Source: Boothiomyces macroporosus
Taxonomy: Eukaryota > Chytridiomycota > Chytridiomycetes > Rhizophydiales > Terramycetaceae
Direction of reading: 5' to 3'
Assembly (NCBI GenBank): GCA_027604185.1
Contig: JADGKB010000131.1
Coordinates: 1-33,560, forward strand
DNA: 33,560 bases
Shown here: piece after piece, positions 6,863 through 30,952 of the stretch
Layout of the letters: the number at the start of each line of letters is the position of its first letter
How positions within the stretch are numbered: position 1 is the stretch's first letter
Notes under the pieces: generated by a model
What the model saw: the letters and a program-made list of their open reading frames with translations, nothing else
What the model was told of the DNA's origin: nothing
Databases searched by the model: none
Translations under genes and position numbers: made by a program

Positions 6863-7126
6863 ATGCTATTTAATCTCAAGTCACTTGTCAATATCCTCGC
6901 CCTTTCCTCTGCTATTTCGGCAATCGCCCTCCCAAATGTTCAAACCGATGAACCTTCTTTGGCAGTTCGCGATGCTGGAATTGTAGAATCAGCTGGTGCA
7001 AATACGATGGTTAAGCGTGAAGCACTTCCAGATCCTGCTAAAAAGAAAAAGAAAGGAAAGAAGGGCAAGAAAGGCAAGAAGGCTAAAAAGAAAAACGAGA
7101 TGTTGAAGAAGCTGATAGTAAAGTAG
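6863..7126 (+). CDS. Lysine-rich secreted preproprotein 1 (frame apparently broken in the lysine tract)
   Basis: An 87-residue frame: signal peptide (MLFNLKSLVNILALSSAISA), pro-region with EPSLAVRD, Kex2-type site MVKR, dipeptides EA-LP-DP, then a Lys/Gly tract starting AKKKKKGKKGKK. After the tract the frame runs into NEMLKKLIVK and a stop at 7124-7126. In the -1 frame the DNA instead continues as KRDVEEAD and a long acidic stretch with three RDV(E/Q) repeats, to TAG 7216-7218. Paralogue 2 has just such an acidic spacer after KRDD. The shift falls in A-runs at about 7083-7096. It may be a one-base deletion, a sequencing error, ribosomal frameshifting or, less likely, a 17-nt intron at 7101-7117 (GTTGAAGAAGCTGATAG). 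Function unknown; secreted polycationic peptide precursor inferred. Confidence 0.8.
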   Translation: MLFNLKSLVNILALSSAISAIALPNVQTDEPSLAVRDAGIVESAGANTMVKREALPDPAKKKKKGKKGKKGKKAKKKNEMLKKLIVK

Positions 7127-7218
7127 CAGATGAAGCCGAACTTGAAGCCAGAGATGTCGAATCAGATTTGGAAGCAAGAGATGTTCAAGAAGACACTGAA
7201 GCTGATGAATCTGACTAG
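7127..7218 (+). other. Acidic continuation of lysine-rich gene 1 in the -1 frame
   Basis: Continuous coding potential in the -1 frame relative to the upstream gene, rich in Asp/Glu with a repeated EARDVE motif, ending in EADESD and TAG at 7216-7218. An AATAAA follows near 7226. Its composition matches the acidic spacer of paralogue 2, so it probably belongs to the same precursor. Confidence 0.55.
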
Positions 7219-7536
7219 TCTGTAAATAAATTTATTGCAAATAAGATTACTCTTCTTTAGATAGTTTATTTGATTGAAAGATAAAGTTTGTATCCACAGA
7301 TTTCGTCATACAGAAACTTTTCCTTCCAAATACACCAAATTTGAATACTTTACCATGTTGGGAACATTTCTAATCTGAATCGCAATTCAATTTCATGAAT
7401 CTTTCTTTTTGATTAATGAGCTACCGCAGTAATGGGTTTCATAACATAGTTTTGATTGACAGCCCAACCAACTGTCGAAAAAGCCCACGCGAGAAAAAAT
7501 TATAAATGGACAGCCAAGTTGTGGTAAATATCAAAA
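7219..7536. other. Promoter region of lysine-rich gene 2
   Basis: Contains the gene 1 polyadenylation-like AATAAA, then TTGACAGCC at 7456-7464 and GAAAAAGCC at 7477-7485 matching the gene 1 promoter, and TATAAA at 7501-7506, 36 nt before the ATG. No gene seen. Confidence 0.5.
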
Positions 7537-7944
7537 ATGCTCTTCTCTGTAAAATCATTCATCAATATCCTCGCTCTCTCTGCCTTTGTGGACGCATCTC
7601 CAATCTCCTATGACCAAGACCTTGTAGTTCGCGACACCTCTCTCAGCCAATCTGATATTGACATGCTGGTTAAAAGAACAGCCATGCCAAAAAAGAAAAA
7701 GGGCAAGAAGGCAAAGAAAGGAAAGGCCAAACGAGACGATACCCCTGAAGACTCTGAATTAGCGCCAGACTTGGAAGCTGATATACCTGTTGATGCTCAA
7801 TCTTTAACTACAGATACTGCCGAAAGTCCAGAAAATGATTTGACTAAACGCTCTCCACTCCCAAAGAAAAAGAAGGGAAAGAAAGGAAAGAAAGCAAAGA
7901 AAGCCAAGAAGGGTAAAGCAAAGAGAGATGAGGACCAAGATTGA
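7537..7944 (+). CDS. Lysine-rich secreted preproprotein 2, two-peptide precursor
   Basis: 135 residues. Signal peptide MLFSVKSFINILALSAFVDA, short pro-region with VVRDTS, then KR-TA-MP-KKKKGKKAKKGKA-KR, an acidic 40-residue spacer (DDTPEDSELAPDLEAD and onward), then KR-SP-LP followed by a second Lys/Gly tract to KAKR and DEDQD. Four KR sites therefore bracket two polycationic peptides and an acidic linker, like a polyprotein hormone precursor. The residues between each N-side KR and the first Lys are X-Ala/X-Pro dipeptides, which are substrates of Ste13-type dipeptidyl aminopeptidase. TATAAA lies at 7501 and AATAAA follows the stop. No matching known family comes to mind; a secreted role is inferred from the leader and the processing sites. 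Confidence 0.88.
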   Translation: MLFSVKSFINILALSAFVDASPISYDQDLVVRDTSLSQSDIDMLVKRTAMPKKKKGKKAKKGKAKRDDTPEDSELAPDLEADIPVDAQSLTTDTAESPENDLTKRSPLPKKKKGKKGKKAKKAKKGKAKRDEDQD

Positions 7945-8056
7945 TCCCTATGTAATAAATACTGTACATCGATCCTCTTTTTTTAATTCACTGGCCGCAT
8001 TGTTTCAAAACGAGGCAACCTTTTACGCCAGGCCAGGGAACTTGATTGTTCCTCGC

Positions 8057-8062
8057 TATAAA
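8057..8062 (+). promoter_or_regulatory. TATA box of the Cys-rich GPI-type gene
   Basis: TATAAA 36 nt before ATG 8093, the same spacing as in the lysine-rich genes. Confidence 0.6.
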
Positions 8063-8092
8063 AAGTGATTAATTTTTGTTCCTTTCATCACT

Positions 8093-8560
8093 ATGCAATT
8101 GAATTTCGTTATTTTGGCAGCTACTGTCCTCGCCCAACAAAACTGCGACGACACCAATTTCGGCGCTTGTCTTCAACAAAACCAAGTTTTCTTGGACAGT
8201 ACTTGCACGCCATTGCAAAAGAATGACCCTACCAACTACCAGAAATGTCTATGTTACCAATTGGTCAACGCCAAAACTTGTTATGCTCAATGCCCAAATA
8301 ACTCTACCGTTCAAAATCAATTCACCACTGGAGTTTTGGTTTCGTTAAACGCCCAATGTAAAACTGCACAGCTTGATCCAAACAACTTGCCACAACCTGC
8401 TCCATGGGTTACCTACACCGCAACTGCCACTGCTGGTTCGTCCACTCAAACCATTGCCGGATCCGCTCCAACTGGCACTTCAACCCAAAAAGCTTCTTCA
8501 AATGGACTGTCTGGCTCCGCCTACGCTCTTGCTTTAGGAATCGTTGGAATGCTCTTCTAA
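8093..8560 (+). CDS. Secreted 8-cysteine protein, probably GPI-anchored
   Basis: 155 residues: signal peptide MQLNFVILAATVLAQQ, a domain with eight cysteines (18, 26, 38, 52, 54, 63, 67, 89; note the CLC pair), a Ser/Thr/Ala-rich stem from about residue 105 (TYTATATAGSSTQT), and a hydrophobic tail (SGSAYALALGIVGMLF) typical of a GPI signal. Eight cysteines plus a GPI tail recall fungal CFEM proteins, but the CxC spacing does not fit CFEM as I know it. It is better called a small fungal cell-wall/membrane protein of unknown function. It sits beside the lysine-rich genes and shares their promoter layout. Confidence 0.85.
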   Translation: MQLNFVILAATVLAQQNCDDTNFGACLQQNQVFLDSTCTPLQKNDPTNYQKCLCYQLVNAKTCYAQCPNNSTVQNQFTTGVLVSLNAQCKTAQLDPNNLPQPAPWVTYTATATAGSSTQTIAGSAPTGTSTQKASSNGLSGSAYALALGIVGMLF

Positions 8561-8626
8561 GCGTCATAGAAATAAACCCTTTTTTATTATCATCTAATAA
8601 TGTAACTGTATGCTAGCATCATGCGC

Positions 8627-8632
8627 TATAAA
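8627..8632 (+). promoter_or_regulatory. TATA box upstream of VMA16
   Basis: TATAAA within GCTATAAAATC. By the usual spacing it would predict a start codon near 8658-8668, where there is none. This bears on the uncertain VMA16 start. Confidence 0.45.
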
Positions 8633-8846
8633 ATCAAATCTAGTCGCGCTTCATTCTTTTTAATTTGAGTGGAATTTTTTGAACCATCTCACAACCATTT
8701 CTCGTAGAAGGAGGACACCACAAGAATCTCACATTGAAATTCCACTTGAAGACTTAAGCACAAGACTAGGAGTTAGACTTAACGAAATACAAAACAACGA
8801 ACAACAAGCAGTTACTTTATCACCTTCATCATTGATCGATTTAAGA

Positions 8847-9556
8847 ATGTACTATTCAAAAGAAGCTGTTATTGCGTACACTTTCACTCTATTGATAGTG
8901 ATTGTACTTTTAAACATGTTATTTACTGGAAACGGGGAAATGTTCAACGTTGGAAAGTTTTTAACGGATACCACACCCTACATGTGGGCAATGTTAGGAT
9001 CTAGTTTGGCAGTCGGTCTGTCCGTAGTAGGAGCCGCCTGGTAATATATATTAATATAGGGGTATTTATATCACTGGATCCAGTTTAATTGGGGCTGCTG
9101 TACGAGCACCAAGAATCAGAACAAAGAATTTGATCAGGTAACACGCGTGTAATGCTAGTATTATTTTCTGCGAAGTAGTAGCCATCTACGGAGTTATTAT
9201 TGCAATTATCTTTTCATCTAAATTAAACTTTACTGAAATGGGCGAGGTAATTCTTGATTTATATAGCCTGGTGAGGTCTTTAGCAAAGCCACATATTTCT
9301 CTGGATATGCGCTATTCTGGGCTGGATTAACCGTTGGTTTATCTAACCTATTCTGCGGAGTATGCGTCGGGATCACTGGATCTACCTGTGCTATCGCAGA
9401 TGCTGCTGATGCTCAGCTATTTGTCAAAGTACTTTTGGTTAACCATAGGTCTTGATTATTGAGATCTTTGGGTCTATTATTGGACTCTTTGGGCTAATTA
9501 TTGGTCTACTAATGTCTTCAAAGGTTCAAGACTTTGAATACGCTGCTCTATCGTAA
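8847..9556 (+). CDS. VMA16: V-type H+-ATPase proteolipid subunit c''
   Basis: Membrane-rotor subunit of the vacuolar proton pump. Five exons (8847-9040, 9060-9137, 9159-9246, 9267-9428, 9449-9556) give 209 residues, close to yeast Vma16. Introns are 19, 21, 20 and 20 nt. Visible hallmarks are [70 protein letters not shown] (essential Glu in TM3) and [28 protein letters not shown]. The open frame continues 61 codons upstream of ATG 8847 to a stop at 8661, encoding a basic then acidic segment ([20 protein letters not shown]) without any ATG. Either translation starts at 8847 or an N-terminal extension begins at a non-AUG codon (TTG 8679) or in an unseen exon. AATAAA overlaps the stop. Confidence 0.93.
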
Positions 9557-9610
9557 TAAAGCCCATTTTTTTGATTTAGTCTCCATTACTACAAAGAAAA
9601 CTCAATATAT

Positions 9611-10324
9611 TCAAAAGTACTTTAACTTGGCGCCTTTTCCTCCGGCAATCATTGGCTGGTTCAACTTGACTTCGGTTTTCGGGTCTTCTTTCTTTGGCTC
9701 TTCCTTTTTCTTTTCACTAAACAGCTTTGCGACTTTGTCAAAGTTTGGAATCCACAGCTTCATGATGGTGTTGTACAGAAACAGGGCTCCCTGGATTAGA
9801 CTACTGATACCTGCGTCCGAGGCAACATTAGCCAAAAGACTACTACTGTTTTTAGACTGTAGTAGAATGGTGACATTTTCATCAACATGCCATTGAAATT
9901 TTCAACAAACTCTAGCATTCCATAAATGACCCAGTAACTCAACCACTGTTTATAATTAGACTTGTCTTTATCACACTCGATTGATTTCAATGACATGTAC
10001 GCTGGATAAACATGTGAAAGTAAATCAGTCAGTATTCCCGCTTGCACGTTCTAAATTAAGGGTTCTCTTACGAAAATTATCAGAATATGAAAGATCAAGA
10101 CAAACAACAATACTGCGATTATTGTTATTTTAGAACAACCATATTTCTTTGCGAAATCTACCAAGGGTTTATGAGGTTCCAAAGCCTTTTCAACCTACAT
10201 GAGAAAATACTACATCGTCATAGACCTTCTTGATTTTTTCCATTAAACTCTTTTCTTTTTCCTTCTTTTCCTCCTTTTTCTCTTCTTTTTTCTTTTTGGT
10301 AGTAATGGTATATCCAGTTAACAT
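9611..10324 (-). CDS. YOP1: YOP1/REEP (TB2/DP1/HVA22) ER-shaping protein
   Basis: Reticulon-like hairpin protein that curves tubular ER membranes. Four exons (10324-10214, 10194-10072, 10050-9811, 9790-9611) give 217 residues. Introns are 19, 21 and 20 nt. The family core is clear: HVYPAYMSLKSIECDKDKSN, then QWLSYWVIYGMLEFVENF, MSPFYYSLKTVVVFWLMLPRTQ and GALFLYN, with the last join exactly between RTQ and GAL. An N-terminal hydrophobic stretch (ITIIAVLLFVLIFHILIIF) gives the first hairpin. Unusual are the highly charged N-terminus (KKKKEEKKEEKKEKEKS) and the charged C-terminal tail. It is convergent with VMA16, 54 bp away. Confidence 0.93.
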
Positions 10325-10444
10325 AAAGTGAAAGTTGGCGGCGTGCGCTCTGTCGAGATGTCAATGCCCTATGATCTGTATTTTATATGGGCGTGACCTT
10401 GTTTTGTTTGTACACATAGAAGGTCAAAATGATCTAAAATCTAT

Positions 10445-11278
10445 TCAATACTTGTATTTCTTTAGAGATCGCTCTGGTTTTAAGCTCGAAAACGATCTCA
10501 AGTCCGAGTCGCACTTTGTTCTCGGTGTTGTGCAGCTGCTATCCGTGAACTTTATAAGGAATGATTTACCTCTTCAAAATCATCGTCATAGGCTAGCACT
10601 CTTTTACCAGTGAACTCATCAAGCATCTCAAATACACGCTCTACTGGGGTATCGGGTTTCTAATTACATATTACATACCTTTAATAGCTCTTGAATCAGT
10701 GTTGCTGCAGATTCAGCATTCTTCATCGGTGTCATTTTTTTCTGTAGTAATCTAGGATCTAGTCCTGGCCATGGCATGGATGTATTTGACTGTAAACGCT
10801 GCATCAATGAATTGGCGACTTTTGCTTCATGAACAATCCTGTTATGTTGTAAAGTAACACATTTCGTGATTTTAATCAGTGATAGTTTCTTTAACAGTTC
10901 TTCCCGTACTGGATCCGCTTTTATTTCTTCATCTGGAGCCAATTCCGGTTTATCAAATTGAGGCACTAGCTTTACTGGTGAACAGATATTTGTGAACTTC
11001 CTTGGTTCAGTTGGTTTGTAACTGATCATCGACGCGCTAGCCCAGATTGTGGGTTTCAATGAGGATTTAATTTTGTCTGTATGCATTGGCGTAAATTTAT
11101 TTCTACAAGTTGATAAGATGGTCTTGTCTTGAGGTTTTGGTATTTTAGGTAATTTATCGTAATCGTGCAAAAGAGATGGTGCCAATTTTGATACTGGTTT
11201 TGGTATCCGGAAATACTTTTTCTCCTTGGAAGGATCTGGTACATAAAACTTTTTACAACTATTAAGGTTTAAATCCAT
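10445..11278 (-). CDS. Hypothetical basic protein, three exons
   Basis: Exons 11278-10679, 10659-10570 and 10549-10445 give 264 residues. The introns are 19 nt (starts GTATGTAATA, ends TAATTAG) and 20 nt (starts GTAAATCATT). The protein starts MDLNLNSCKKFYVPDPSKEK and has many Lys-Pro pairs (RIPKPVSKL, KIPKPQDK), a helical segment with REELLKKLSLIKI and an AATLIQELLK helix. The second exon contains TPVERVFEMLDEFTGKRVLA and an acidic YDDDFEE. The last exon is Ser/Thr/Lys-rich and ends KKYKY. No signal peptide or membrane segment is seen. I do not recognise the family. The second intron is less certain: without it the protein ends six residues later at an in-frame TAA. Confidence 0.7.
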
Positions 11279-11340
11279 ATATTAATGAAAGATAAGAATT
11301 TTGAGGTTTTATTTTTTGTTTGTTTACCATAGAATAACAA

Positions 11341-13599
11341 TTAGTCTAAAGCGACCACCGCATTCCCAACAACAAACATGGCTGGATTATCAATTCCTTG
11401 TGCTATTTGCAATTCATTTATAGTGGACAAGGTTCCCTTGCACACTTTTTGACCCACCACCCAAGCACCTTTTTCTATAATAGCACACGGCAAGTGTTCA
11501 GGATATCCCTGCACATAGAGCAGTTCAATCAAAGGCTGAATTCTAGCAAGCGCCATTAAAAATATTGTTGTTCTGGTTTCTACAAATTCAGGAATTGATG
11601 GGAATGCACCTTTTTGTCCCCTCCCTGTCAAAATAAGCACTTGGTCCGCAACTCCTCTATGTGTAACTGGAATATTTGAGGCTAAGGTAGAACCAAATAC
11701 ACTAGAAATACCAGAAATCGGTTTAGCCACGAATCCATGTTCTCTGAAATACAAAATTTCCTCACCTCCTCTTCCGTATACAAATGGATCTCCAGTCTTC
11801 AACCTAACAACGCTTTTGCCTTCTTTCAGGGCGTCCAGGCACTTTTGATTTGATTCATCTTGCGCTTTATCTGAAGCTCCACCAACCTTGAAAGAAGACA
11901 ATTCCAATTTCTCGGCATCAATAACATCTAACACTTCCTGTGGAATTAAACGGTCGGACACGACGTAGTCTGCGGTCTTGATGAGCATTAGAGCTTCAAT
12001 AGTTAACAACTCTGGCCTTCCAGGACCAGCCCCAACCAAATAGATCATACCTGGTTGAGCAAAATAGCGAGTTGATAAAAAGTTGTCAAACCCTGGAATA
12101 GGAGCTTCATCCATCAGTTGTTCTGCACCAGGACTGGTTGATTGATCAATACTTATGCATGGTGCAATTTGATCTGTCAAAGTGGATTTTTCAATAGGAG
12201 TTGGAGGCAAAGTACCTACATCTTTATCGACCATTTCAGTGGAAATTCCTTTGGAATGACGACCTACGGGACTTGTCTGTTTGTCTAAAGTATTGATTGT
12301 TTCACTATTACTAGCTTGCTCATTAGTGCTAACCAATGTAAATGTTCCTTGCGTATTCAGTTCTTTTTTAATCGGACTGGTTGATCGATCTACATTGATT
12401 TCTGGGAGTGTTTCTGTGCCGGTGCTTGAAATATTCCTTCCAACCTCTATTGAACTGGTTTTTGACGATTCACCTACTTTCACCTTTTTTGGCGTTCCAC
12501 TTTCAAAAGTATCGACAGTTCTCTTATCTTCTTGTTCCTTGATTTTGACGTTCTTCCTTTCACCCAAATTCCCTTTTATAACAAATAATAATTTAAAATG
12601 AATATAAAAGAGATAAATCAGCTGCATGACAATCATATAAGAATAGCTGAAAACAGTCTGTATCCAAGCAAAGTATCCCATTGAACTTGGACACCACCAA
12701 TAAGAAGTTAAAAAGACAGGCAAGTTGGTGTTCAAGCGGGCTACCTTTGTATTTACAACTGGTGGAGAAGGAACATCCCTTCCACTTTCAAATTCGCGCA
12801 AGATCTTTTCGATTTTGTCTGAATCATTAGCAGAAGCAAGTTGCTCGATTGACCAAGTATCACAAAATCTAGATACCCATCCCATTCGCTTTTTAATCTC
12901 TTCACTAGACTTTCCGCTAGAAATTTCCCTAATTCCACTTCGAATTTTTGCTACAGCTGAAACAGCTTTAGGAGTAGCAGGATTCATATTTTCAACGATT
13001 GCATTTCTAATTCTTGCACCTAATCTTGGGCCTCCGCCGTTTGTAGAAACAGCAATTTGCAATTCCTCATTTCGGTATTGAGCCATGAAATAAAAGTCGC
13101 ATAATTCTAGTATTAGCAATATCTAACCAGGGATATCGGCGCAGTTGACTGGTATTCTCTTTGCTCTTGCCAACAGGGCAATTTTCCGCGATTCTTGGTG
13201 ATCATCAATTGTGCACAAAACCATGTCAACAGCGTGTCCTTCAGTTGAATCGTTCCACCTTAATTCCAAATCTTCCTCTTGAAACTTTCGGTCCAGCACT
13301 CTAACCAATCCACTATTAATACGCTGTTCTACAGCTGGATGTCGATTTTCAGGGGGTGCAACAACGGTAACATTTGCAGAGGCATCAAGAGCAAAAAATG
13401 TACGGATTGCAGCTTCTCTCCCTCCTCCTATGACTAACACATGTTTTCCTTTTAGCTGATATGCAAGCAAAAAAGATCCGTTGCCTAATATGGGTCGTGA
13501 AACTGAATGTGCTGGTTGATTGATTTTCATTTCGGAAAAAATAAAGCTAAATTCACGATGGTTTCCAAGAGTAATTTCACTTGGTTTATCCGAGCTCAT
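11341..13599 (-). CDS. Siroheme synthase: MET8-type dehydrogenase/ferrochelatase fused to uroporphyrinogen-III methyltransferase
   Basis: Makes siroheme, the sulfite reductase cofactor, from uroporphyrinogen III. Exons 13599-13128 and 13106-11341 give 745 residues; the 21-nt intron starts GTTAGA and ends CTAATACTAG. Residues about 45-260 are the Met8-like part. It shows an NAD-binding HVLVIGGGREAAIRT, then NCADIPELCDFYF spanning the splice (with the Asp equivalent to the Met8 catalytic Asp), IAVSTNGGGPRLGARIR, and helices to about 268. Residues 286-336 are strongly hydrophobic (YSYMIVMQLIYLFYIHF). A 170-residue low-complexity Ser/Thr linker follows. From residue 511 comes the SUMT domain: MIYLVGAGPGRPELLTIEA, SDRLIP, RLKTGDPFVYGRGGEE, PISGISS and PVTHRG. 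The domain order (Met8 part first, SUMT last) lets one chain do all three chemical steps. The hydrophobic insert suggests membrane attachment. Confidence 0.93.
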
Positions 13600-13722
13600 T
13601 GCCGCTTGAATTTGGCTCCCTACGAATAGAGCGAACTTTTAGCAGCGAATAACTTCAATAGGATAGAGACAGAGATAGTATTAGTTGTTCTATTCACAAT
13701 TAATCTTTACATTTTTCGCGTT

Positions 13723-13953: not shown

Positions 13954-14496
13954 TTAAGCTGCAGGTGCAGGCTTGAAAAATCCAACTAATTTACTTATGA
14001 TGGATTGGTTAGCTGGTTTGGCTTCCTTCTTCTTGCCCTTGCCTTTGTTGTTCTTTTTGCCTTCAGCCTTCTTTAATTGCTGATCAGCTTTCTTTAGCTC
14101 CTTTTCAGCAGCTCCATTCTTTTTCTTTTTCAAGTCATTTCCAGCTACTTTGACATCCTTGTCGGCTTTCTTTAGCTCGCCTTCTTCCTTCTTGTTCTTT
14201 TTGACTTGCTTTTCGGCTTTTTTGATTTCCTTGTCGGCTTTCTTTAGTTCCTTCTCTGCAGCTTTATCCTTCTTTTTTTTGACATCTTTTTCAGCAACCT
14301 TTACATCCTTGTCTGCTTTTTTAATTTCTGCTTTGGCTTTTTGCCCTTCATTCTTGTTTTTCTTTTCTGCTCCTTTGGAGATATTGACAGCTTGCGGTGG
14401 GATGTTAGCGACCGGCGCGGCAATAGCAGTTGTTTCAACTGGCGGAATAGCTAGTGACATAACGGAAGTTAAGACTAATAAAAGTTGGAATTGCAT
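13954..14496 (-). CDS. Lysine-rich helical-repeat secreted protein
   Basis: 180 residues from ATG 14496 (MQFQLLLVLTSVMSLAIPPV), chosen because TATAAA at 14537-14532 lies 41 nt upstream. The ATG at 14517 would be only 20 nt from it. After a signal peptide and a short Ala/Pro region comes a highly charged segment with imperfect repeats of ELKKADK-(D/E)-(V/I)-K-(V/K)-A-(E/G): KKADKDVKVAEKDVKKKKDK, AAEKELKKADKEIKKAEKQV, then a second round. The tail has GKGKKKEAKPANQSIISKLV and FFKPAPAA. It lacks the KR plus dipeptide module of the other lysine-rich genes and mixes Glu/Asp with Lys, so it should form amphipathic or coiled-coil helices. It may be a distant relative or an independent secreted polycation. 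Function unknown. Confidence 0.82.
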   Translation of the reverse strand: MQFQLLLVLTSVMSLAIPPVETTAIAAPVANIPPQAVNISKGAEKKNKNEGQKAKAEIKKADKDVKVAEKDVKKKKDKAAEKELKKADKEIKKAEKQVKKNKKEEGELKKADKDVKVAGNDLKKKKNGAAEKELKKADQQLKKAEGKKNNKGKGKKKEAKPANQSIISKLVGFFKPAPAA

Positions 14497-17014: not shown

Positions 17015-17785
17015 CTCTATAATCCTCAATCTACTTATTCTAGTATGCATTATCTGCCGTATTTCCAGTTTACTATGATGTAGGAATTACTAATACAATC
17101 TGGGAACTGGGTTAAAGCAAGAGTGGGGATGGATGACACCTCAGTGTGGGAACTAACAAAAAGAGACATTACAAAATTTTTCATGGGGCCAAGGCAGTAT
17201 TAATTTCCTCTTGAGCCTGCTTTCAAATAGTGATGTCAGTCAGGATCGGGAACGTCCATAGGTTTCATGTTCAAAGTCCAAGAAATTGAATACTCGACCC
17301 TTCTTTTTAGGCGAGTTACGACTACTAATATAAATACAGACGAGATACGACAGAGTGAAAGGTATCCGCTTGGAAATTTTTATTCTAAATCAAAGATCTG
17401 GAGGTGTTCATTGACGGGGTAAAGTGGAGCTTTTGGGGAATGTTGAGCAAGAGCTCTAGTGAAAAGAGTGTATTCCTTACTGATTCAGACTGCTTGCATC
17501 AAGAATTATTGTCTGTTAGCATGTATATTAGAAAAGCAATAATATTTGGTGGCGACACACGGGCTGTTTCAGTACCGCTATTTGAATACAGCTACAATTT
17601 ATCATATCTCTGCCAAATTAATTGGTGGAAAGAATGAATTGTAGTTTCAACTGATTTGCAGTTTATTTGCTGTTCAACGCTTCTCTAAATTACAATTTCC
17701 ACTATTGTGCTTTAGGGGAAAGACAAGCCATGCCTGAATGGATTGAGCCTCTCATTGCCAGCTTCAGTAGCCCACCTTCTTTACC
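17015..17785. other. Intergenic region with an orphan TATA-like element
   Basis: About 770 bp. TATAAATACA near 17328 matches the TATA boxes of lysine-rich genes 3 and 4, but no ATG follows at the usual distance. A 77-codon frame at 17404-17637 starts at GTG/TTG and reads like no known protein; it is probably chance. Confidence 0.4.
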
Positions 17786-17791
17786 TATAAA
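17786..17791 (+). promoter_or_regulatory. TATA box of lysine-rich gene 3
   Basis: TATAAA in CTATAAATACAGG, 39 nt before ATG 17825. It is nearly identical in context to the box of gene 4. Confidence 0.65.
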
Positions 17792-17824: not shown

Positions 17825-18253
17825 ATGTTGTTCAATCTCAAATCACTTGTTAATATTCTCGCTCTCTCTGCCTATGTTTCTGCTATTGCTGGTCCAGTAG
17901 CCGACATTGAAGAACCATCCTTGGCTACCAGAGATACTCAGATCGCCGAATCTTCTGCCAACTTGCTAGTCAAACGCGAAGCATTCCCTGATCCAGCTGC
18001 AAAGAAAAAGAAGGGAAAGAAGGCAAAGAAGGGCAAGAAGAAGGGAAAGAAAGCCAAGAAGGGAAAAAAGAAGGGAAAGAAGGCAAAGAAGAACAAGAAG
18101 AAGAAGGGAAAGAAGGGTAAGGGCAAAAAGAAGGGAAAGAAGGCTGCTCAAGCTGCTGCCGCTCAAGCTGCTGCTGCTAACGCTGCCAATGCCGCCGATG
18201 CTGCAAACAACGCTACTGTTGCTGCACCAGATGCCACTGCTGCTGCTGTTTAG
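17825..18253 (+). CDS. Lysine-rich secreted preproprotein 3
   Basis: 142 residues. Signal peptide MLFNLKSLVNILALSAYVSA, pro-region IAGPVADIEEPSLATRDTQ, Kex2-type LVKR, dipeptides EA-FP-DP-AA, then about 45 residues of KKKKGKKAKKGKKKGKKAKK-type sequence and an Ala/Asn-rich tail (QAAAANAANAADAANNATVA). The signal and pro-regions are close to genes 4 and 5. The lysine tract has no acidic spacer or C-terminal KR, so one long polycation with an Ala-rich tail would be released. AATAAA follows the stop. The coding strand is almost pure purine from about 18000 to 18140. Function unknown. Confidence 0.88.
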   Translation: MLFNLKSLVNILALSAYVSAIAGPVADIEEPSLATRDTQIAESSANLLVKREAFPDPAAKKKKGKKAKKGKKKGKKAKKGKKKGKKAKKNKKKKGKKGKGKKKGKKAAQAAAAQAAAANAANAADAANNATVAAPDATAAAV

Positions 18254-18743
18254 ATTTCCAAATAAAAATCTTGTAAATATGCGATTTGAATTTTAAACAA
18301 ATGTAACTTGTTTCAAGGAGAGCCAGTGCTAATTCAAGAAATACTAATTATCACTACAACTTGAACATTGTCAAGTGAAAATGACACCAAGCGTAGTTGG
18401 TTCATGCTAGGCTATACCCATCAATTAAAGTTTGTATATTGAGCCAAAGCATTAATCTAAAAGGGTCAAAATGTCAAAATGCAATTTGACTGGGGGGTGA
18501 TAAATTGAACCAGGAATTTGTCATGCAGGCTTCAGCTCTTGCCTGAAAAAGTTTACAATTCAATCAAACTTGATGGTTGTACCTGGGTAACTGCGAGTGG
18601 TAAGAGATCGATACCACTCACCTAATATTCCAATAGTGTATCTATCGTGAAGAAGAGTAAAGGCAAAAATCACATCACTAGTTTAGCAAAATTGCAAAAA
18701 TGAGCCAATATTGTATTTGCCAAACGGCGTACACTCGATCAGC
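18254..18743. other. Intergenic region with a hairpin
   Basis: About 490 bp between lysine-rich genes 3 and 4. It contains an 8-bp perfect inverted repeat, GAGTGGTA at 18595-18602 and TACCACTC at 18612-18619, with a 9-nt loop. No gene was recognised. Confidence 0.45.
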
Positions 18744-18749
18744 TATAAA
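18744..18749 (+). promoter_or_regulatory. TATA box of lysine-rich gene 4
   Basis: TATAAA in GCTATAAATACA, 38 nt before ATG 18782. Confidence 0.65.
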
Positions 18750-18781: not shown

Positions 18782-19372
18782 ATGTTATTTAATCTCAAAA
18801 CTCTTGTAAATGCTCTTGCACTTAGTGCTTATGTATCTGCCATTGCTGGACCAGTGGTAGACTATGAAGAACCATCCTTGGCAATCAGAGATACTCAAGT
18901 ATCAGAAAGCTCTACCGATATGCTAGTCAAACGTGATCCAATGCCAGATCCACACAAGAAGAAAAAGAAGAAAAAGAAGGGAAAGAAAGCAAAGAAGGCA
19001 AAGAAGGGCAAAAAGAAGGGAAAGAAGGCAAAGAAGAACAAGAAAAAGAAGGGAAAGAAGGCAAAGAAGAATAAGAAAAAGAAGGGAAAGAAGGGAAAGA
19101 AAGGTAAGAAGGCTAATAAAGCCAAAAAGGCTGCTGCAAATGCTGGATGTAATGGAGCCGCCAACAATGCTGCGAATAACGGCGCGAATGGAGCTGCCAA
19201 CAATGCTGCGAATAACGGCGCGAATGGAGCTGCCAACAATGCTGCGAATAACGGCGCGAATGGAGCCGCCAACAACGCTGCAAACAACGGGGTCGCTGGA
19301 ACTACTGCCACCAACAACGCAAATAACGGTGTAGCAGCTATCCCAGCAGTCACCACCATTGCTTCTACTTGA
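18782..19372 (+). CDS. Lysine-rich secreted preproprotein 4 with Asn/Ala/Gly tandem-repeat tail
   Basis: 196 residues, the longest family member. Signal peptide MLFNLKTLVNALALSAYVSA, pro-region IAGPVVDYEEPSLAIRDTQ, LVKR, dipeptides DP-MP-DP, then HKKKKKKKKGKKAKKAKK and about 55 residues of Lys/Gly/Ala/Asn. The C-terminal part has four copies of a 12-residue unit (NGAANNAANNGA), encoded by 36-bp repeats at 19151-19294, ending in VTTIAST. A lone Cys sits just before the repeats (AGCNGAA). The tail may be a spacer or wall-interaction segment; this is inference. AATAAA follows the stop at 19382. Confidence 0.88.
   Translation: MLFNLKTLVNALALSAYVSAIAGPVVDYEEPSLAIRDTQVSESSTDMLVKRDPMPDPHKKKKKKKKGKKAKKAKKGKKKGKKAKKNKKKKGKKAKKNKKKKGKKGKKGKKANKAKKAAANAGCNGAANNAANNGANGAANNAANNGANGAANNAANNGANGAANNAANNGVAGTTATNNANNGVAAIPAVTTIAST
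19151..19294 (+). repeat. 36-bp coding tandem repeat, four copies
   Basis: Units at 19151, 19187, 19223 and 19259, each starting AATGGAGC(C/T)GCCAACAA. The first three are nearly identical; the fourth differs at several bases and ends GGGGTC. Such identity suggests recent expansion by slippage or unequal crossing-over. Confidence 0.9.
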
Positions 19373-20808: not shown

Positions 20809-20826
20809 ATGCAGCTCATATATCCA

Positions 20827-21282
20827 ATGAATTTAATCTGCCTGCTACTTTCTAGCACACTCTTTGCCACCCGACCAAACTCTACTGACATTTCAAAGCA
20901 AGATAAACGTAAAAAGCACAAACATAAAAGAAAGAAACACAAGAAAAAACGGAAAGGAATCCTGCACATTCTACTACCTCATACCGGCATACCCGTACTG
21001 ATACCTCACAGACAAACTCAGAATAAGCCTTTGGAGTTTCCTCCACCTCCTCAAAGAGATCCGTTACCAGCTATACCCACAACTAGTATACCACAAGAAA
21101 TACCCCAGCCAACTGCCACCATACCACAAGTGACTAGTCCGCCTCGTGGTGCAAATTTACCGCCTGTAACGATTGCCCAAGTTGCTCAACCAACATTCTT
21201 CACAATCCCTACTTTTAGTGCAAAATCAATGGCAGATAAACCAGAGCTTTCACTGCTCATTTTAGTAATAAACCTCTTGTAA
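20827..21282 (+). CDS. Secreted His/Lys/Arg-rich and Pro-rich protein
   Basis: 151 residues from ATG 20827 (MNLICLLLSSTLFATRPNST). The in-frame ATG at 20809 lies only 13 nt from TATAAA 20796, too close to be in the transcript, while 20827 lies at 31 nt. After the signal peptide comes a basic tract rich in HK/RK (KRKKHKHKRKKHKKKRKG), then a Pro-rich region with repeated IPQ/PTT motifs (TTSIPQEIPQPTATIPQ). It ends in a hydrophobic tail (LSLLILVINLL) that could be a GPI signal. It lacks the KR-dipeptide module, though DKRKKH could be a dibasic site. Possibly a divergent member of the secreted polycation set. Function unknown. Confidence 0.7.
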   Translation: MNLICLLLSSTLFATRPNSTDISKQDKRKKHKHKRKKHKKKRKGILHILLPHTGIPVLIPHRQTQNKPLEFPPPPQRDPLPAIPTTSIPQEIPQPTATIPQVTSPPRGANLPPVTIAQVAQPTFFTIPTFSAKSMADKPELSLLILVINLL

Positions 21283-21291: not shown

Positions 21292-23009
<1,718 letters not shown>

Positions 23010-23964: not shown

Positions 23965-23986
23965 GGTGAGGCCAGCTGACCTCACC
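23965..23986. repeat. 22-bp near-perfect palindrome
   Basis: GGTGAGG, a central CAGCTG and CCTCACC form an inverted repeat with 10 of 11 base pairs matching; one C/A pair is mismatched. It could be a dimeric regulator site or a transcript hairpin. Confidence 0.7.
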
Positions 23987-24498: not shown

Positions 24499-25480
24499 AT
24501 GCCCGCACTAGCTGAACCAGTATTAGCTCTTCAAATTGGAAACTTGCAAAAGTTGACAGTCGACCATGACTTGTCTACAGTGTGGAATCTCTTTACTAAA
24601 TGCAAAGACAGTTTAGAAAATGGACATAGGTTAGAGAATTTGTCTTGGAGGTATTTTTATAATTAATCGTAGACTGTGGTATCGCTCCTGCCATCCTCCA
24701 GCAAACAAAAAACAAATCAACCCTATTTCTTCGCTCTCTCAGCCTATGGAAAAAAACTTGAAAGTAGATCTGTCAGTACCAGTTATACCACCATTCCAGC
24801 AAAAAGAAGTAGCCGCGCCAATACAAGTGAAGGCGCCTGCAGTGCAAAATTTTGAAATTGCAGCAGCTTCCCTGATGGGCCCAGTCGTTCCAGAGTTTAC
24901 CTCTGTCCCACAAAGAAATGTATTGGTGAAGCCAGTACCAACTAGACCAACACCTGCACCTGTTACTATCAATCAGGTTTCTAAACCAGTGGACATCAAA
25001 CCAGTGTCGACAGTTGCAACGAAACCAAAGACCAGATCCCCTCCTAAAGAAAGGTCTAGAGCTACGTTCTTCATCTCTGAATCGCAATCTAGCCACAGCA
25101 CAATTGGCTCTTACCGATCCAACTATTCTGAAGATGATGACTCTGATCTAGAGTCGGACATTTCTGGGGATTCGTACGTTGAAGCTCCAACACTGTTTTT
25201 GAAGAATTGCAAGAGCAATCTGCCGATAAAGAGGGCTTCTCTTTTGTCTGTAGCTATTCAAAGGCAGGCGTTCAGGAGATCTCAATCTCATAATACCCAG
25301 ATCGACACATTACCGCAAGATATCCCACAACCTATTTATTCACAAGACATTGACATATCGCCCTCTCTAAAAGAGAATTTGGCTTGGGATCATGCGAGAC
25401 CTTTCAATACCACCGCAAAGGTGGAGGGAAGGAGACATCTAGACTCTACTCCTATATCTAGTTCTTTTAATTATTGGTAA
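24499..25480 (+). CDS. DUF1752 / GATA_AreA-like N-terminal domain protein
   Basis: Exons 24499-24650 and 24673-25480 give 319 residues; the 22-nt intron starts GTATTTTTAT and ends ATCGTAG. The first exon and the join create LSTVWNLFTKCKDSLENGHR followed by LENLSWRLWYRS, the signature of the fungal DUF1752 motif. That motif is found at the N-terminus of AreA-type nitrogen regulators and several other fungal regulatory proteins. The rest is low-complexity and disordered. It is Pro/Val-rich (VDLSVPVIPPFQQKE), then has a basic SPPKERSRATFFISESQSSH segment, an acidic EDDDSDLESDISGDSYVEAP and Ser-rich stretches. No GATA zinc finger is present, so this is not a DNA-binding AreA orthologue. A signalling or regulatory role is inferred. 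Confidence 0.85.
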
Positions 25481-25561
25481 ATTATTGGTGTATATAATAT
25501 AATAGTTTTTTTCTAGACTTTTTTGTTTTTGTAAAGTTCCAACCACTGCTTGTAATCAAGA

Positions 25562-28261
25562 ATGAAGTTCAAAAACTGGACTCGGAATCTACAGCTGAAA
25601 TCTTCAGTAATTCTATTCGCGATTCAAATAGTGGGATTATATCTTTTCAAGGAAGGGTTTCTATTATCTAGATTAGAGCTACACACTAAAAGCACCCAAC
25701 CAGCGCTATTCCCCAGGTACAATAAAACACTACTGGTGATGATTGACGCTCTCCGCTTTGATTTCATAAAGTACAAGCCGGGAATAGCAAGAGATGCACC
25801 TCATTATATCAATAAAGTACCAGTGATTCACGAACTACTGACAACCCAGCCAAAGAACAGTTTGTTGTTTCGAGGATTAGCCGACCCGCCAACAACTACT
25901 TTACAACGTCTGATGGCGATTGTTACTGGCGCTTTGCCCACACTTGTAGATGCAGGCAGCAATTTCGAAGGGGCATCGTTAAAAGAGGACAATATCTTGG
26001 AAAAAATACTTTTACGGAATCAGAGGATTGTTTCTTTGGGTGATGATACATGGGATAGACTCTTTCCGTCTGGATTTAACGAATCGCACTTCTTTCCTTC
26101 TTTTGATGTTTGGGATTTACATACAGTAGATGAAGGTGTCTTGTCTTATCTATGGCCAATGCTGGATAAACCAAGTCATGATTGGGGATTTCTTATTGCG
26201 CATTTCCTAGGAGTAGATGTAAGCATTGTTAATGTAGCATGCCGGCCATCGGTATGGGCCTGGTCATTATCAAATGGGGGAAAAGCTTGCTCAGATGGAT
26301 CGAGTGTTGCGTATGCTATTTGAAAAAGTTCATGAAGATACTCTAGTTATAGTTATGGGAGACCATGGGATGGACCAAAAAGGAGACCGTAAGTGTGTAT
26401 TAAAGTAGACGGAGGCGATTCAGACCCTGAAATGGATGCCGCGTTATTCTTTTATAGCAAGAAACCATTGATTACTGGAACCAAAGACTATTATAATTCC
26501 TTGCAACAGATTATCAAACAGACAAAAGGATTGGATGAAGGGTTCGAAAAGTTTTCAGAATGGAAAGGACACAGGACAGTGCAGCAAATTGACCTTGTGC
26601 CTACAATATCACTGCTGATGGGATTGAACATTCCATATGGAAATCTAGGATCAATTATTCCCGAATTCTTTATCGATTCAGATTTGAATTTACTTTTGGA
26701 AGCTACTAGACTGAATGCGCAACAGATGGAAACGTACTTGGATGCGTATTCAGAATTAAGAAGTGATGCTAAACTGGCATTTACCAAAAGTAGAAATCTT
26801 TATAAACAAGCAACTGAAATGGAGGGCAAACAAGATATTTCCACCGTCATTGCTTACACCCACTTTCTACGACAAACATTGCTGGTTGCAAGAAATATCT
26901 GGTCTCGTTTTGAGCCTACTCTAATGATTATGGGGATTCTTGTACTGATATTGTCTTTTCTTGTTAGTCTAGCAATGTACTTTAAAAAGATGGGTTTGAA
27001 AAAGCCATTGATTATTGGCGCGTTCAGTTCGCTTGTTGGCTTATTCTCACCAATTAGATCTATATGTTATCCTGGATTGGATGCTGATGCTTTAACAATC
27101 AAACCAGTACACGAAATGCTGTTCTTTGCGACATTTTCGTTTTGCATAGCGATTTTCTTTAATATGAAGAGCATACAATTTGACCTGTTAAGCAAATATT
27201 CTTTACTTGGAATGGTTATAGTGCTGCTATACGTTAGTTGTGTTGGATCGGACAGCTTTACAATATTTGAAGATTTCGCAATCCTGCACTTTATTCAGTT
27301 CATTCATGTTGCTATGCTTTACATGTCCTTTAATTTAAAGAGCCAGAAACTGTTTATGCAACGACAAATTTTAATTTGTGCTGTACTCACAAGGATCATG
27401 TCTTTTGTGACGTTGTGTAGACCGGACCAAGGGCCATACTGTCTTGCCACATTCAATGCGTCACCAACATCCTCAGTATCAGCTATTTGGACTCCCATTG
27501 CTTTGATGGTACTGAATGTTTTGGTGATCTATGAAATTCGTAAAAACAAAAAGTCTCTTAAGTTTGCAAACATTGCGACTCTGTCAATAATGTCGGTGAC
27601 TATATATTGGATACTGGATACTCTTGAAAACCACTCGCTCATCTCGCCAACGTTTATCAAAAATATCTTCGTATACATTTATTGGCCAACTATTGGATAC
27701 TTGTTCTACACTGTACCAAAGACGGATACCAATATTCTGACACTGTATTACATTTTCCTATCAATGTTCCAAAAGCCTATGGGTGGAGTCGTTTTAGCGC
27801 TTGGATACTTTTACTTTATCAGTTTAAAAATCATTAATCGCAATTGGCCACTAAACTATTTGGTGTATCCCCAAGGTTTTCTCATTGGCCAATTGATTTT
27901 CTATTCAACTGGTCACCAAAACACGCTACCGTCTGTTCAATATGAAATTGGGTTTATAGGAATCACAACGGCGAATTACTTGCTTTCACCAATATTTATC
28001 AGTCTAAACACATTTGCTGGACCAATATTTGGGTCAGTGGCTACAAACAACTGGAATATCTTGCGAATGATAAGCGGAACGGCGCTAATGACTACCGTGA
28101 TATTTACTTTTCACTTTTCTCGACATTCACAGGCATTTAGAGTTTGGGGACCGAAATTCTTGTTCTTTGCAGGAGGGCATACTATAAGCAGTATACTGAA
28201 TATTGTCAATGGGTTTGTTCAAATTGACGATCAAATTGAAACTGATTTTAAAAATGAATAA
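25562..28261 (+). CDS. GPI13: GPI ethanolamine-phosphate transferase 3 (GPI13/PIG-O)
   Basis: ER membrane enzyme that adds phosphoethanolamine to the third mannose of the GPI anchor, the group through which proteins are attached. Exons 25562-26218, 26238-26388 and 26409-28261 give 886 residues. Introns are 19 and 20 nt. The luminal alkaline-phosphatase-like domain shows TLLVMIDALRFDF (metal/nucleophile region, D62), PPTTTLQRLMAIVTGALPTL, DAGSNF, FLGVDHAGHRYGPGHYQM and VIVMGDHGMDQKGDHGGDSD. Both introns fall inside these motifs and their removal restores them. The C-terminal half has about ten membrane helices. IDALRFDF separates it from the MCD4 and GPI7 paralogues. The window also encodes probable GPI-anchored substrates. 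Confidence 0.94.
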
Positions 28262-28331
28262 AATCAAGTAACAATACAGTATTTCTTTTAAAAGAATATG
28301 TCTTGTATTGATTGCAAGTGTTTTGGAAATG

Positions 28332-28337
28332 AAAAAA
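28332..28337 (-). terminator. RNA polymerase III terminator of tRNA-Val
   Basis: Six consecutive T on the minus strand starting two bases beyond the tRNA discriminator base. Confidence 0.85.
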
Positions 28338-28338
28338 G

Positions 28339-28412
28339 TGATTCCATCCAGGATCGAACTGGAGACCTCAAGCATGTTAAGCTTGCGTGATAACCAACTA
28401 CACCATAGAACC
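28339..28412 (-). tRNA. tRNA-Val (anticodon AAC)
   Basis: 74 nt, no intron. The acceptor GGTTCTA pairs with TGGAATC (two G-U pairs), followed by discriminator A. The anticodon stem CAAGC/GCTTG encloses the loop TTAACAT, giving AAC. The T-arm TCCAG-TTCGATC-CTGGA is perfect. The D-arm includes AGTTGGTTA. CCA is not encoded, as expected for a eukaryotic nuclear gene. A run of six T follows one base after the 3' end. Confidence 0.96.
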
Positions 28413-28544
28413 ACGTTTTTTGAAAAAAACTGAGCCAAAAACAATTTTTAAATAGTGTCTCTAGTTGCTGAAACTACTAATGGGGTTGTAGATATTGATA
28501 GTGAACGTGGTTTTATTTACAAATTTTTACGGTTTTCAAATTGT

Positions 28545-28931
28545 TTAGACTGCAGTCGCGTTTCCAGTGGCATTTCCAGTTGCAGCAGCGATAGTTTCAG
28601 CCTTCTTTGCAGCCTTTTCCTTCTTTTTCTTGTTCTTTTCCTTCTTTTTCTTGTTCTTTTCCTTCTTTTTCTTGTTCTTTTTTCCCTTCTTTTTCTTGTT
28701 CTTTTTTCCCTTCTTGTTCTTCTTGCCTTTCTTTCCCTTTTTCTTTTTCTTCTTGGCGTCAGGGTCAGGCATTGCATCCCTTTTAACTACCATGCCAATA
28801 TTGGATTCAGCTAGTTGAGTGTCTCTGACAGCCAATGAAGGCTCTTCAATGTCTGCTACTGGCCCAGCAATAGCAGATACATAGGCAGAGAGAGCGAGGA
28901 ATTGAACAAAAGATTTGAAATTAAATAACAT
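28545..28931 (-). CDS. Lysine-rich secreted preproprotein 5
   Basis: 128 residues. Signal peptide MLFNFKSFVQFLALSAYVSA, pro-region IAGPVADIEEPSLAVRDTQ, VVKR, dipeptides DA-MP-DP-DA, then KKKKKKGKKGKKNKKGKKNK. Later in the tract come repeats of NKKKKEK, and the tail is AAKKAETIAAATGNATGNAT. The tail has two NAT glycosylation sequons. TATAAA lies on the minus strand at 28968-28963, 37 nt before the ATG. The signal and pro-region are almost identical to gene 3, about 11 kb away and on the other strand, so the family spread by dispersed duplication. Function unknown. Confidence 0.88.
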   Translation of the reverse strand: MLFNFKSFVQFLALSAYVSAIAGPVADIEEPSLAVRDTQLAESNIGMVVKRDAMPDPDAKKKKKKGKKGKKNKKGKKNKKKKGKKNKKKKEKNKKKKEKNKKKKEKAAKKAETIAAATGNATGNATAV

Positions 28932-28962
28932 TTGATTCTGGTTGGTTTAGAGAACATGAATA

Positions 28963-28968
28963 TTTATA
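28963..28968 (-). promoter_or_regulatory. TATA box of lysine-rich gene 5
   Basis: TATAAA on the minus strand, 37 nt before ATG 28931. Confidence 0.6.
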
Positions 28969-29133
28969 TCCTTTTGGTGCAAGGCTAGTCTATTCGGCTA
29001 GTAAAAATCGAAAACTGAAATACAGCCATAGTACACACTGTAGCCCTGACCCGAATTACCAATTTGCTTGTTCAATACCAACGAGTCCCTGGCCAAAGTT
29101 TTTCTTTTACTTCACAAGGCAGCTGTTTGTTTC

Positions 29134-30028
29134 ATGGACAAAATTACAGAGTTATTTGATGCACTAGAACATTTGTTTTCAAATACCAAAGACACACAAG
29201 CAAAGCTTATTGCATTAAAGGAAACATGGTCAACTCCTACTGAACTAGCGCTGTTGCTTCCACAAATTGCAAGAACTTATGGGCTTCTCTCAGACTTTGA
29301 AAATGGCCACAAACTGGTATCTGAAGCCGAACAATTACTTCATCAAATCCCGGATTCCAATTTGAAAACAATAATTATAGTTCGCATTTCGTTGGAGCGG
29401 GGAAGATTATACCGTTCCTCAGGGAAGAAGGCAGAGTCTATTCCATTCTTTCAAGATGCTTGGGATAAGAGTTTAGGTGTTGAAGGTGCTGATTACTTTC
29501 TAGTTGATGCAGGTCATATGATGGCTTTGGTCATGGAACGAGAACAGAGGTTAAACTGGTATGAGAAGAGTATTGCAGCCGCAGAGAAAAGCACTGGTAT
29601 TCGTTTCTAATATAGATAAGAAAGCTAGAGGTTGGCTTGGTGCGCTCTACAATAATTCTGCATGGGATGAACACGATTTGGGCAATTATCAGAAGGCATT
29701 GGAGCTGTTTCAAAAAGGGTTGGATTTCAGAATTAGCAACAACGACTCTCAAAGAACTATTAATATTGCAAAGTGGTCCGTTGCACGAGCACAAAGATCG
29801 CTTGGTCGTTACCAAGAGGCATTGGAGATACAAGAGGAGCTTGCAAATCACCCAAACGATGGATACGTGTTTGAAGAACTTTTAGAATTGTACAGCGCGC
29901 TTGACCAGAAAGAAAAGGTTCAAACGGTTGCCAAGAAAGCGTACGAGCTACTGTCCAAAGATGATTGGTTTGTAAAGAATGAAGCTGCCAGATTTGAAAA
30001 GATAAAAACCTTGGCATTAGGCTCATAA
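29134..30028 (+). CDS. Tetratricopeptide-repeat protein of unknown function
   Basis: Exons 29134-29596 and 29616-30028 give 291 residues; the 19-nt intron starts GTATTCGTTT and ends CTAATATAG. ATG 29134 (MDKITELFDALEHLF) is the first in frame; the upstream open frame has only a TTG. Several TPR-like helical pairs are visible: ELALLLPQIARTYGLLSDFE, ISLERGRLYRSSGKKAESIP, WLGALYNNSAWDEHDLGNYQ then KALELFQKGLDFR, and RAQRSLGRYQEALEIQEEL. The block around GWLGALYNNSAWDEHD...IAKWSVARAQRSLGR is familiar from bacterial and fungal TPR proteins with no assigned role. No signal peptide or catalytic domain is present. It is probably a cytosolic scaffold. Confidence 0.85.
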
Positions 30029-30041
30029 TAAACTCCAGCAG

Positions 30042-30354
30042 TTGTTTCTCTATTCAAATGTAATTTCGCTGCAGTTCACCCCAAGCTCTAATCAATGTTT
30101 ATTTTCAGAACTGCTGCTCCGTTTCCAGCTGATTTCCTTTGCCTTCCTGATACTACTGTCTTTGGGGCTTTGGCTACCACTACCAGACATTCCGCGTAAC
30201 TTGAGCTTTGAACCAAACGCAACATTGAGGAAACAGAGAGGTGTACGATGGATTGTTATCTAATCTTACTGTGAATCACATCAAAGATCGCGTAGCATTC
30301 GATAGTTTAAATGATGAGCCTACTGTGTTGTTGAACAGAGAAAAGGAAACTGAA
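30042..30354 (+). other. Possible small membrane protein with a frame jump
   Basis: A plus-strand frame without ATG (30042-30263) contains a good membrane segment (LISFAFLILLSLGLWLPLP) and then FEPNATLRKQRG. In the +1 frame the coding-like sequence continues (YDGLLSNLTVNHIKDRVAFD to NREKETE) and ends at TAA near 30354, followed by an AATAAA-like signal. A 34-nt intron at 30198-30231 or a one-base indel would link the two. No start codon could be assigned. It may be a real gene with an unseen first exon. Confidence 0.3.
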
Positions 30355-30694
30355 TAAAAAGACAGATTATTAGTTAAGTTTAATTGTCTTTACCCCTTTT
30401 CATTCAAAGAACCAATCATTCTAAACCACTATACGTAGAATTACAATACAGCAGTTTAAATATCGTGATGTCTTGTGAAGTTTGAAGAAAGCCAATGCCA
30501 TTGGGCAAGATAACAGGAATTTCCAACGCAGCATAGATACACTATCAGCGGGAATATTTTTTTCAAATTTTACCACTTTCACGCGTGTTTGATGTTGCAT
30601 CACAGACAAGAGAACTAATGTACAACTTGAGTTTACAACTACGAAATTCTTTGGCAAAAATCAATCAATACAAAATATATTCACAAATAGCAAA

Positions 30695-30952
30695 TCAAGC
30701 CTTTTTAGCCTTCTTTGCTTTCTTCTTTTTGCCCTTCTTTGCTTTCTTTGCCTTCTTCTTTTTACCCTTCTTTTTCTTTCCTTTAGGAACAGGTTCAGGC
30801 ATAGCTTCACGTTTACCCAAATTGGCATACGCAGTTACACCGCCATCACGAATAGCCAGATCCGGTGCATTTTCTTGGTAAGGAGCAGCAATTGCAGAGA
30901 CATACGCAGAAAGCACGAATAAACAAAAGTAAGTTTTTACACTACCAAACAT
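30695..30952 (-). CDS. Lysine-rich secreted preproprotein 6
   Basis: 85 residues, the shortest intact family member and the most divergent in its leader (MFGSVKTYFCLFVLSAYVSA). Pro-region IAAPYQENAPDLAIRDGG, then LGKR, dipeptides EA-MP-EP-VP, then KGKKKKGKKKKAKKAKKGKK to a terminal AKKAKKA. There is no tail or acidic spacer. Processing would release one cationic peptide of about 36 residues. TATAAA lies on the minus strand at 30982-30977, 30 nt upstream. Function unknown. Confidence 0.87.
   Translation of the reverse strand: MFGSVKTYFCLFVLSAYVSAIAAPYQENAPDLAIRDGGVTAYANLGKREAMPEPVPKGKKKKGKKKKAKKAKKGKKKKAKKAKKA

Follow-up and report, generated by a model that had tools for sequence, protein, structure and literature searches.

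Putative lysine-rich preproproteins of the chytrid Boothiomyces macroporosus with a dipeptide ladder behind a Kex2-type site

Six related genes and their relatives

Six genes of the soil chytrid Boothiomyces macroporosus, of the family Terramycetaceae in the order Rhizophydiales, appear to encode secreted preproproteins in which a shared leader and a Lys-Arg (KR) site precede a lysine-rich tract. They lie in a stretch of 33,560 nucleotides, here called the window, which takes in all of contig C131 in the assembly searched (15.2 Mb in 216 contigs). An earlier note on this DNA had described the six, and the listing of open reading frames (ORFs) bore it out: ORFs of 85 to 196 codons were found at the starts and on the strands that it gave. 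We refer to them as gene 1 (start at 6863), gene 2 (7537), gene 3 (17825), gene 4 (18782), gene 5 (28931, minus strand), and gene 6 (30952, minus strand) (Table 1).

When aligned, all six keep M1, K6, the Leu-Ser of the hydrophobic core, an RD in the pro-region, and the KR site, and a hydrophobic N terminus is visible in each; the Lys/Gly/Ala tract is likewise present throughout, and lengths of tract and tail differ widely. A genome search with one leader returned the other five window copies at E values of 2e-26 to 2e-7, and the six are therefore homologous rather than alike by chance. The ratio of nonsynonymous to synonymous substitution (dN/dS) in the leader was 0.14 to 0.39 in the 15 of 21 gene pairs with finite dS (the six genes and a seventh member on contig C35); dS was saturated in the remaining six. 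The leader start that the earlier note gave as mostly MLFN(L/F)K is exact in four of six genes (gene 2 has MLFSVK and gene 6 has MFGSVK). Its pro-region motif, (E/A)P(S/D)LA.RD, holds for five and fails for gene 2, which has DQDLVVRD instead and which bears two short Lys peptides rather than the single tract described for every gene. The family is also less dispersed, and larger, than had been thought: four of the six sit in adjacent same-strand pairs (genes 1 and 2, genes 3 and 4), and the genome holds more members. Genes 5 and 6 share a strand, about 1.8 kb apart, with opposite-strand ORFs between them.

Genome-wide searches with a leader and with pro-region and tract patterns added genes on contigs C35, C140, C177, and C180. 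The leader of gene 3 matches eight genomic places, namely the six window genes, C35, and C140. C35 carries a seventh full member, 203 codons long from the shared Met, with a Lys tract and an Asn/Ala/Gly tail that matches N-x-S/T eight times, including two overlapping matches. The genome contains 43 occurrences of the tract pattern KK-x-KK-x-KK, versus 21 of its reversed control. Of the 43, 23 are in window genes, seven in C35, four in C177, three in C120, two in C200, and one each in C180, C2, C6, and C51. Ten of the 15 places coding for it lie in an ORF with a signal-like N terminus as judged by eye (the six window genes, C35, C120, C177, and C180). We call these the K-tract genes; nine of them have a KR site, C120 being the exception. 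C177 and C180, which the leader search did not return, repeat the full layout of leader, KR, ladder (see below), tract, and tail. The short pieces fetched for C200 (two places), C2, C6, and C51 showed no signal-like start, an upstream exon being possible. The pro-region pattern was found at 12 places versus six for the reversed control, seven of them in family or leader genes (five in the window, C35, and C140) and five in unrelated frames. A candidate relative of the C140 gene, on C201, was set aside because its frame has merely 49 codons and lies at a contig end.

Two database profile searches scored only the 8,000 candidates sharing most words, a set probably dominated by Lys words, and therefore do not establish absence from other chytrids. 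They returned relatives of gene 2 in Boothiomyces sp. JEL0838 and Terramyces sp. JEL0728 (P0002 and P0005), both of which keep its order of Lys peptide, KR, acidic spacer, KR, Lys peptide, KR, and acidic end, as well as a relative of the C180 gene. All three of the named database relatives carry the annotation hypothetical protein. Weaker matches (P0006, P0007, P0009, and P0010, of which P0009 has no visible leader) were not used, and a database search with the gene 3 leader alone gave one protein among four candidates. Gene 1 corresponds to the database protein HK103_001292 of B. macroporosus (100% over the whole 87 residues in the profile search). Past the Lys tract its ORF soon reaches a stop, while another frame, from 7093, holds a KR and an acidic tail that resembles the tail after the tracts of gene 2; the C terminus of the public model differs from both frames. 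A frameshift, an assembly error, or splicing may lie behind this ending.

Processing signals and codon usage of the tracts

In all nine K-tract genes with a KR site, the residues after the first KR form dipeptides whose second residue is Ala or Pro, for two to five steps per gene. This in-phase X-Ala/X-Pro (XA/XP) ladder totals 30 steps, a number that 0 of 100,000 shuffles of each ladder's residues reach, and the second peptide of gene 2 has a two-step ladder of its own. In six of the nine genes a Lys directly after the ladder starts the tract. Ten of 11 precursors have Leu, Val, or Ile at P4 of the first KR, and gene 1 has Met; an aliphatic P4 is what Kex2 prefers (PMC8528282). Beyond the first KR, and leaving out further KR pairs, the Lys-to-Arg count of the nine genes is 256 to 2, whereas the ratio in 11 other ORFs of the window is 192:113. 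Counted by KR sites, eight of the nine have one Lys tract and gene 2 has two. A Lys peptide flanked by KR on both sides occurs in gene 2 and its two relatives, and in gene 1 in another frame only; window genes other than 1 and 2 have a single KR.

The genome also contains candidates for both processing enzymes. A kexin-like gene on C33 has subtilase (Peptidase_S8) and P-domain (P_proprotein) frames in one place, and a gene on C154 resembling dipeptidyl aminopeptidase (DPAP) has DPPIV_N and Peptidase_S9 matches. The nine genes have the ladder to be expected of precursors trimmed by Ste13/DPAP. Together, the ladder, the Kex2-like P4, the near-absence of Arg, and the two protease genes strengthen the earlier reading of the products as preproproteins. 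In the route that we infer, the leader would send the chain to the endoplasmic reticulum, a Golgi kexin would cleave after KR, and a membrane dipeptidyl aminopeptidase of the Ste13/DPAP type would remove the ladder and expose the Lys tract, which the scarcity of Arg would protect from kexin.

Several observations weigh against this scheme. The tract starts with Ala in gene 1, His in gene 4, and Arg in C177, and C140 and C118 (a gene introduced below) have only one ladder step each. In gene 2 and its two relatives, each KR that closes a Lys peptide carries a P4 Lys. The kexin-like gene appears as separate fragments, and its P-domain match is interrupted by a stop, which probably reflects an intron. 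Signal peptides were called by eye from the sequence.

Lys-rich tracts can serve as nuclear localization signals and resemble H1 tails, and the products might instead be nuclear or nucleolar proteins of a histone H1-like kind that are not secreted, or secreted effectors for a host nucleus. The conserved hydrophobic leader, the KR in its Kex2 context, and the ladder all argue against this. Pfam scans of the six genes, C35, C177, and C180 gave no histone match; those of the six returned few matches at all (E values of 0.036 to 0.087, all below the curated cut-offs), and no family was above the cut-off for C35, C177, or C180. We regard a nuclear role as highly improbable.

The tracts also differ from their surroundings in codon usage. 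After the KR, seven genes encode Lys with 152 AAG and 51 AAA codons, compared with 76 AAG and 116 AAA in the 11 background ORFs, and Lys, Gly, and Ala of the tracts all use mixed synonymous codons. The longest run of A after the KR is 5 or 6 nucleotides; with Lys recoded at background usage it averages 9.7 to 12.2, and runs as short as those observed arise in a fraction of 0 to 0.036 of the simulations. These values fit selection for translation or for avoidance of poly(A) in the Lys tracts, although the codon bias of highly expressed genes would give a similar picture. They also bear on whether the tracts are low-complexity codon repeats of little function that hitch-hike behind a real leader. 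Tract and tail lengths that vary among copies and the near-identical repeats of the gene 4 tail would suit such expansion. Mixed codons, the in-phase ladder, the near-absence of Arg, and a two-peptide layout of gene 2 kept between genera would not, and we find this account very unlikely.

Upstream elements and genomic setting

We compared the upstream regions of 12 genes, comprising the ten K-tract genes, C140, and a minus-strand ORF at 13954 described below, with those of 32 control ORF starts. TATAAA or TATATA stands 25 to 50 nucleotides before the ATG in 11 of the 12 (all but C140) and in 2 of the 32 controls, a contrast that may be inflated because the control starts include internal exons. 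The element AGCC[ACG]A lies within 130 nucleotides of the start in 10 of the 12, that is, in all ten K-tract genes, and in three controls, one of which is in fact the upstream region of C35, measured from an earlier Met. This shared layout, C120 included, suggests that the K-tract genes are expressed together. Co-regulation is suggested rather than shown, since the AGCC-A motif was chosen after the genes had been seen and many controls are internal exons. Against a specific module stand also the absence of AGCC[ACG]A upstream of C140 and of the 13954 ORF and the genome-wide count of AGCCVA-N5-14-TATAAA, which is at chance level (87 versus 89 for the reversed control).

Seven of the 87 joined modules precede K-tract genes, the other three K-tract genes having wider spacing. 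Of the 80 remaining sites 77 were fetched; 23 have an ORF of at least 40 codons starting 22 to 75 nucleotides downstream, and 54 have none. Five of these 23 look secreted by eye (L079, L094, L095, L115, and L139), among which L139, on C118, has the leader start of the family followed by a different core. When upstream regions were compared in 55 pairs, 11 pairs had scores reached by no more than 2 of 100 shuffles, and gene 2 with C118 scored highest. The six window genes form 15 of the 55 pairs, and these 11 include none of them, which argues against recent duplication alone as the source of the shared elements.

Ordinary genes surround the family in the window, among them those for a VIT-family transporter (beside gene 4), siroheme synthase, a SelR protein, and a CTK3 protein. 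Two further Lys-rich ORFs with hydrophobic starts were rejected as members because they are without the KR-ladder layout. The first (13954-14496, minus strand) encodes a secreted-looking Lys/Glu/Asp-rich protein of 180 residues without KR, has a TATA box 41 nucleotides before its ATG, and found no second match in the genome. The second (20809-21282, plus strand) is secreted-looking, with a short Lys/Arg/His tract and then a Pro-rich part; its tract has KR pairs inside and holds Arg, unlike the family. A small secreted-looking Cys-bearing protein is encoded at 8093-8560 (plus strand), with a TATA box at -36 and no AGCC-A element.

Table 1. Coordinates of the genes and elements discussed (window positions unless a fetched piece is named)
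Feature	Position	Strand	Content
Module upstream of gene 1	6810..6830	+	AGCCGA ... TATAAA
Gene 1 ORF	6863..7126	+	Leader; KR 7013-7018; ladder EA-LP-DP 7019-7036; Lys/Gly tract ~7037-7096
Other-frame stretch at gene 1 end	7093..7218	+	KR, then 39-residue acidic tail
Module upstream of gene 2	7482..7506	+	AGCCCA ... TATAAA
Gene 2 ORF	7537..7944	+	Two Lys peptides, 7678-7728 and 7852-7920; KR sites flanking each
Gene 2 acidic spacer	7735-7845	+	Net charge -11 with its KR; separates the two Lys peptides
Module upstream of gene 3	17769..17791	+	AGCCCA ... TATAAA
Gene 3 ORF	17825..18253	+	Leader; KR; ladder EA-FP-DP-AA; tract 18002-18142
Gene 3 tail	18143-18250	+	Ala-rich; one N-glycosylation sequon
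Elements upstream of gene 4	18703..18749	+	AGCCAA and TATAAA, wider spacing
Gene 4 ORF	18782..19372	+	Leader; KR; ladder DP-MP-DP; tract 18953-19129
Gene 4 tail	19130-19369	+	Asn/Ala/Gly repeats; no sequon
Gene 5 ORF	28545..28931	-	Leader; KR; ladder DA-MP-DP-DA; tract 28754-28602; tail with two NAT sequons
Elements upstream of gene 5	28963..28999	-	AGCCGA and TATAAA, wider spacing
Gene 6 ORF	30695..30952	-	Diverged leader; KR; ladder EA-MP-EP-VP; tract 30784-30698, reaching the C terminus
Module upstream of gene 6	30977..30998	-	AGCCAA ... TATAAA
C140 leader relative	L013 3-533	-	Lys/Pro/Ser/Thr-rich core; ends at contig end
C120 gene	L055 1015-1830	+	271 residues, secreted-looking; Lys/Gly tract between two Cys-bearing parts; no KR
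C118 gene	L156 1523-1963	-	Starts MLFNIKS; two 37-residue repeats ending HKR

Known precursors and possible roles

Kex2-processed repeat proteins (KEPs), which include the ascomycete alpha-pheromone precursors, are described as having a signal peptide, peptides between Kex2 sites, and XA/XP dipeptides for Ste13 (PMC7329392, PMC6339444). The chytrid precursors likewise have a leader, Kex2-type sites, and XA/XP dipeptides beside the site; unlike KEPs, they hold one or two peptides in place of at least three tandem repeats, and their core is a Lys polycation. The KEP survey asked for at least three tandem repeats of at least eight residues between Kex2 sites, an arrangement that the family does not have when KR sites are counted; it took KK as a site too, so that the Lys tracts would fall into pieces far below eight residues; and it covered 19 chytrid strains (PMC7329392). 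Precursors with one or two peptides would probably escape a survey that demands three repeats or more. Fungal Kex2-processed pro-domain (K2PP) effectors carry an N-terminal pro-domain that terminates in a Kex2 site, preferably with an aliphatic P4, and the pro-region here similarly ends in a KR with a mostly aliphatic P4; the examples SnTox3 and ToxA are effectors of plant pathogens, whereas the mature part here is of low complexity and has the additional ladder (PMC8528282).

We found no report of lysine-rich secreted chytrid proteins or of such a fungal Kex2 family in the open-access library searched, where the latter subject brought up one unrelated paper, and the main text of one chytrid comparison does not mention "lysine" (PMC5364385). 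The earlier statement that no fungal family with this layout had been described is consistent with the library searched and with the Pfam scans, the relatives being hypothetical proteins, but the processing logic is that of known Kex2/Ste13 precursors (PMC7329392). The layout of leader, KR, ladder, and tract is well supported and looks undescribed; what we infer concerns the role of the peptides.

Diatom silaffins are secreted, Lys-rich, repetitive peptides cut from precursors. No homology between them and the chytrid family turned up, with no search aimed at silaffins made, and we know of no silica in B. macroporosus. Antimicrobial precursors of frog skin and other animals combine a conserved leader, an acidic spacer, KR, and a cationic mature part. 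The chytrid mature part differs from these in being of low complexity (Lys/Gly/Ala), in having the ladder, and often in a neutral tail, and no homologous animal protein was among the matches of the two database profile searches.

The freed Lys tracts may nevertheless harm competing soil microbes; a conserved leader, acidic pieces, and release by kexin would then parallel many animal peptide precursors. Net charge after the KR is +30, +40, and +30 in genes 3, 4, and 5, and the Lys pieces of gene 2, their KR included, carry +11 and +15. The gene 2 spacer could mask charge before cutting, and C118 combines the leader start with other repeats, as happens in families that pair a fixed leader with varied cores. 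Yet no amphipathic or Cys-stabilized core is evident in the window genes, genes 3 to 5 have neutral tails, and a pre-pro charge of -1 to -4 in the six genes does not balance +11 to +40. Antimicrobial action is the closest rival to surface binding, and we consider it somewhat doubtful.

Surface binding ranks first because several tracts join neutral tails, some with sequons (genes 3 and 5, C35, and C180), and the tract of C120, a protein without a Pfam match, joins Cys-bearing parts; such attachments suit an anchor more than a killing peptide. The products would be free polycations or block polymers in which a cationic anchor carries a neutral, in part probably glycosylated, brush, and, less surely, they would hold by charge to extracellular polyanions of the fungus's own coat or of its substrate. 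That kexin and DPAP release secreted polycations which bind such polyanions as a coat or adhesive is an explanation that we regard as evenly balanced between right and wrong. The sequence gives the probable secretion, processing, and charge of the peptides but not their target. It singles out neither adhesion nor killing, and the tails of gene 4 and C177 are without a sequon.

Lys tracts bind nucleic acid and polyphosphate. The products could thus be secreted or vacuolar binders of these, for phosphate storage or scavenging; the VIT-family gene beside gene 4 is just one neighbor, and we think this role unlikely.

Surface binding may be part of something wider. As a tentative possibility, Terramycetaceae may have a secretory polycation system of co-regulated poly-Lys block polymers, processed in the manner of pheromones and forming an electrostatic coat or glue; within it some products would be free Lys peptides, others Lys anchors with glycosylated brushes, and that of C120 a Lys/Gly linker between Cys-bearing parts. 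If the proposed reading of the family is right, a fungus would make a genetically encoded poly-lysine material with ordinary pheromone-processing enzymes, and Kex2/Ste13 precursors would gain a new type of core. It would also provide a concrete candidate mechanism for the settling and adhesion of wall-less chytrid zoospores, or for keeping competitors off.

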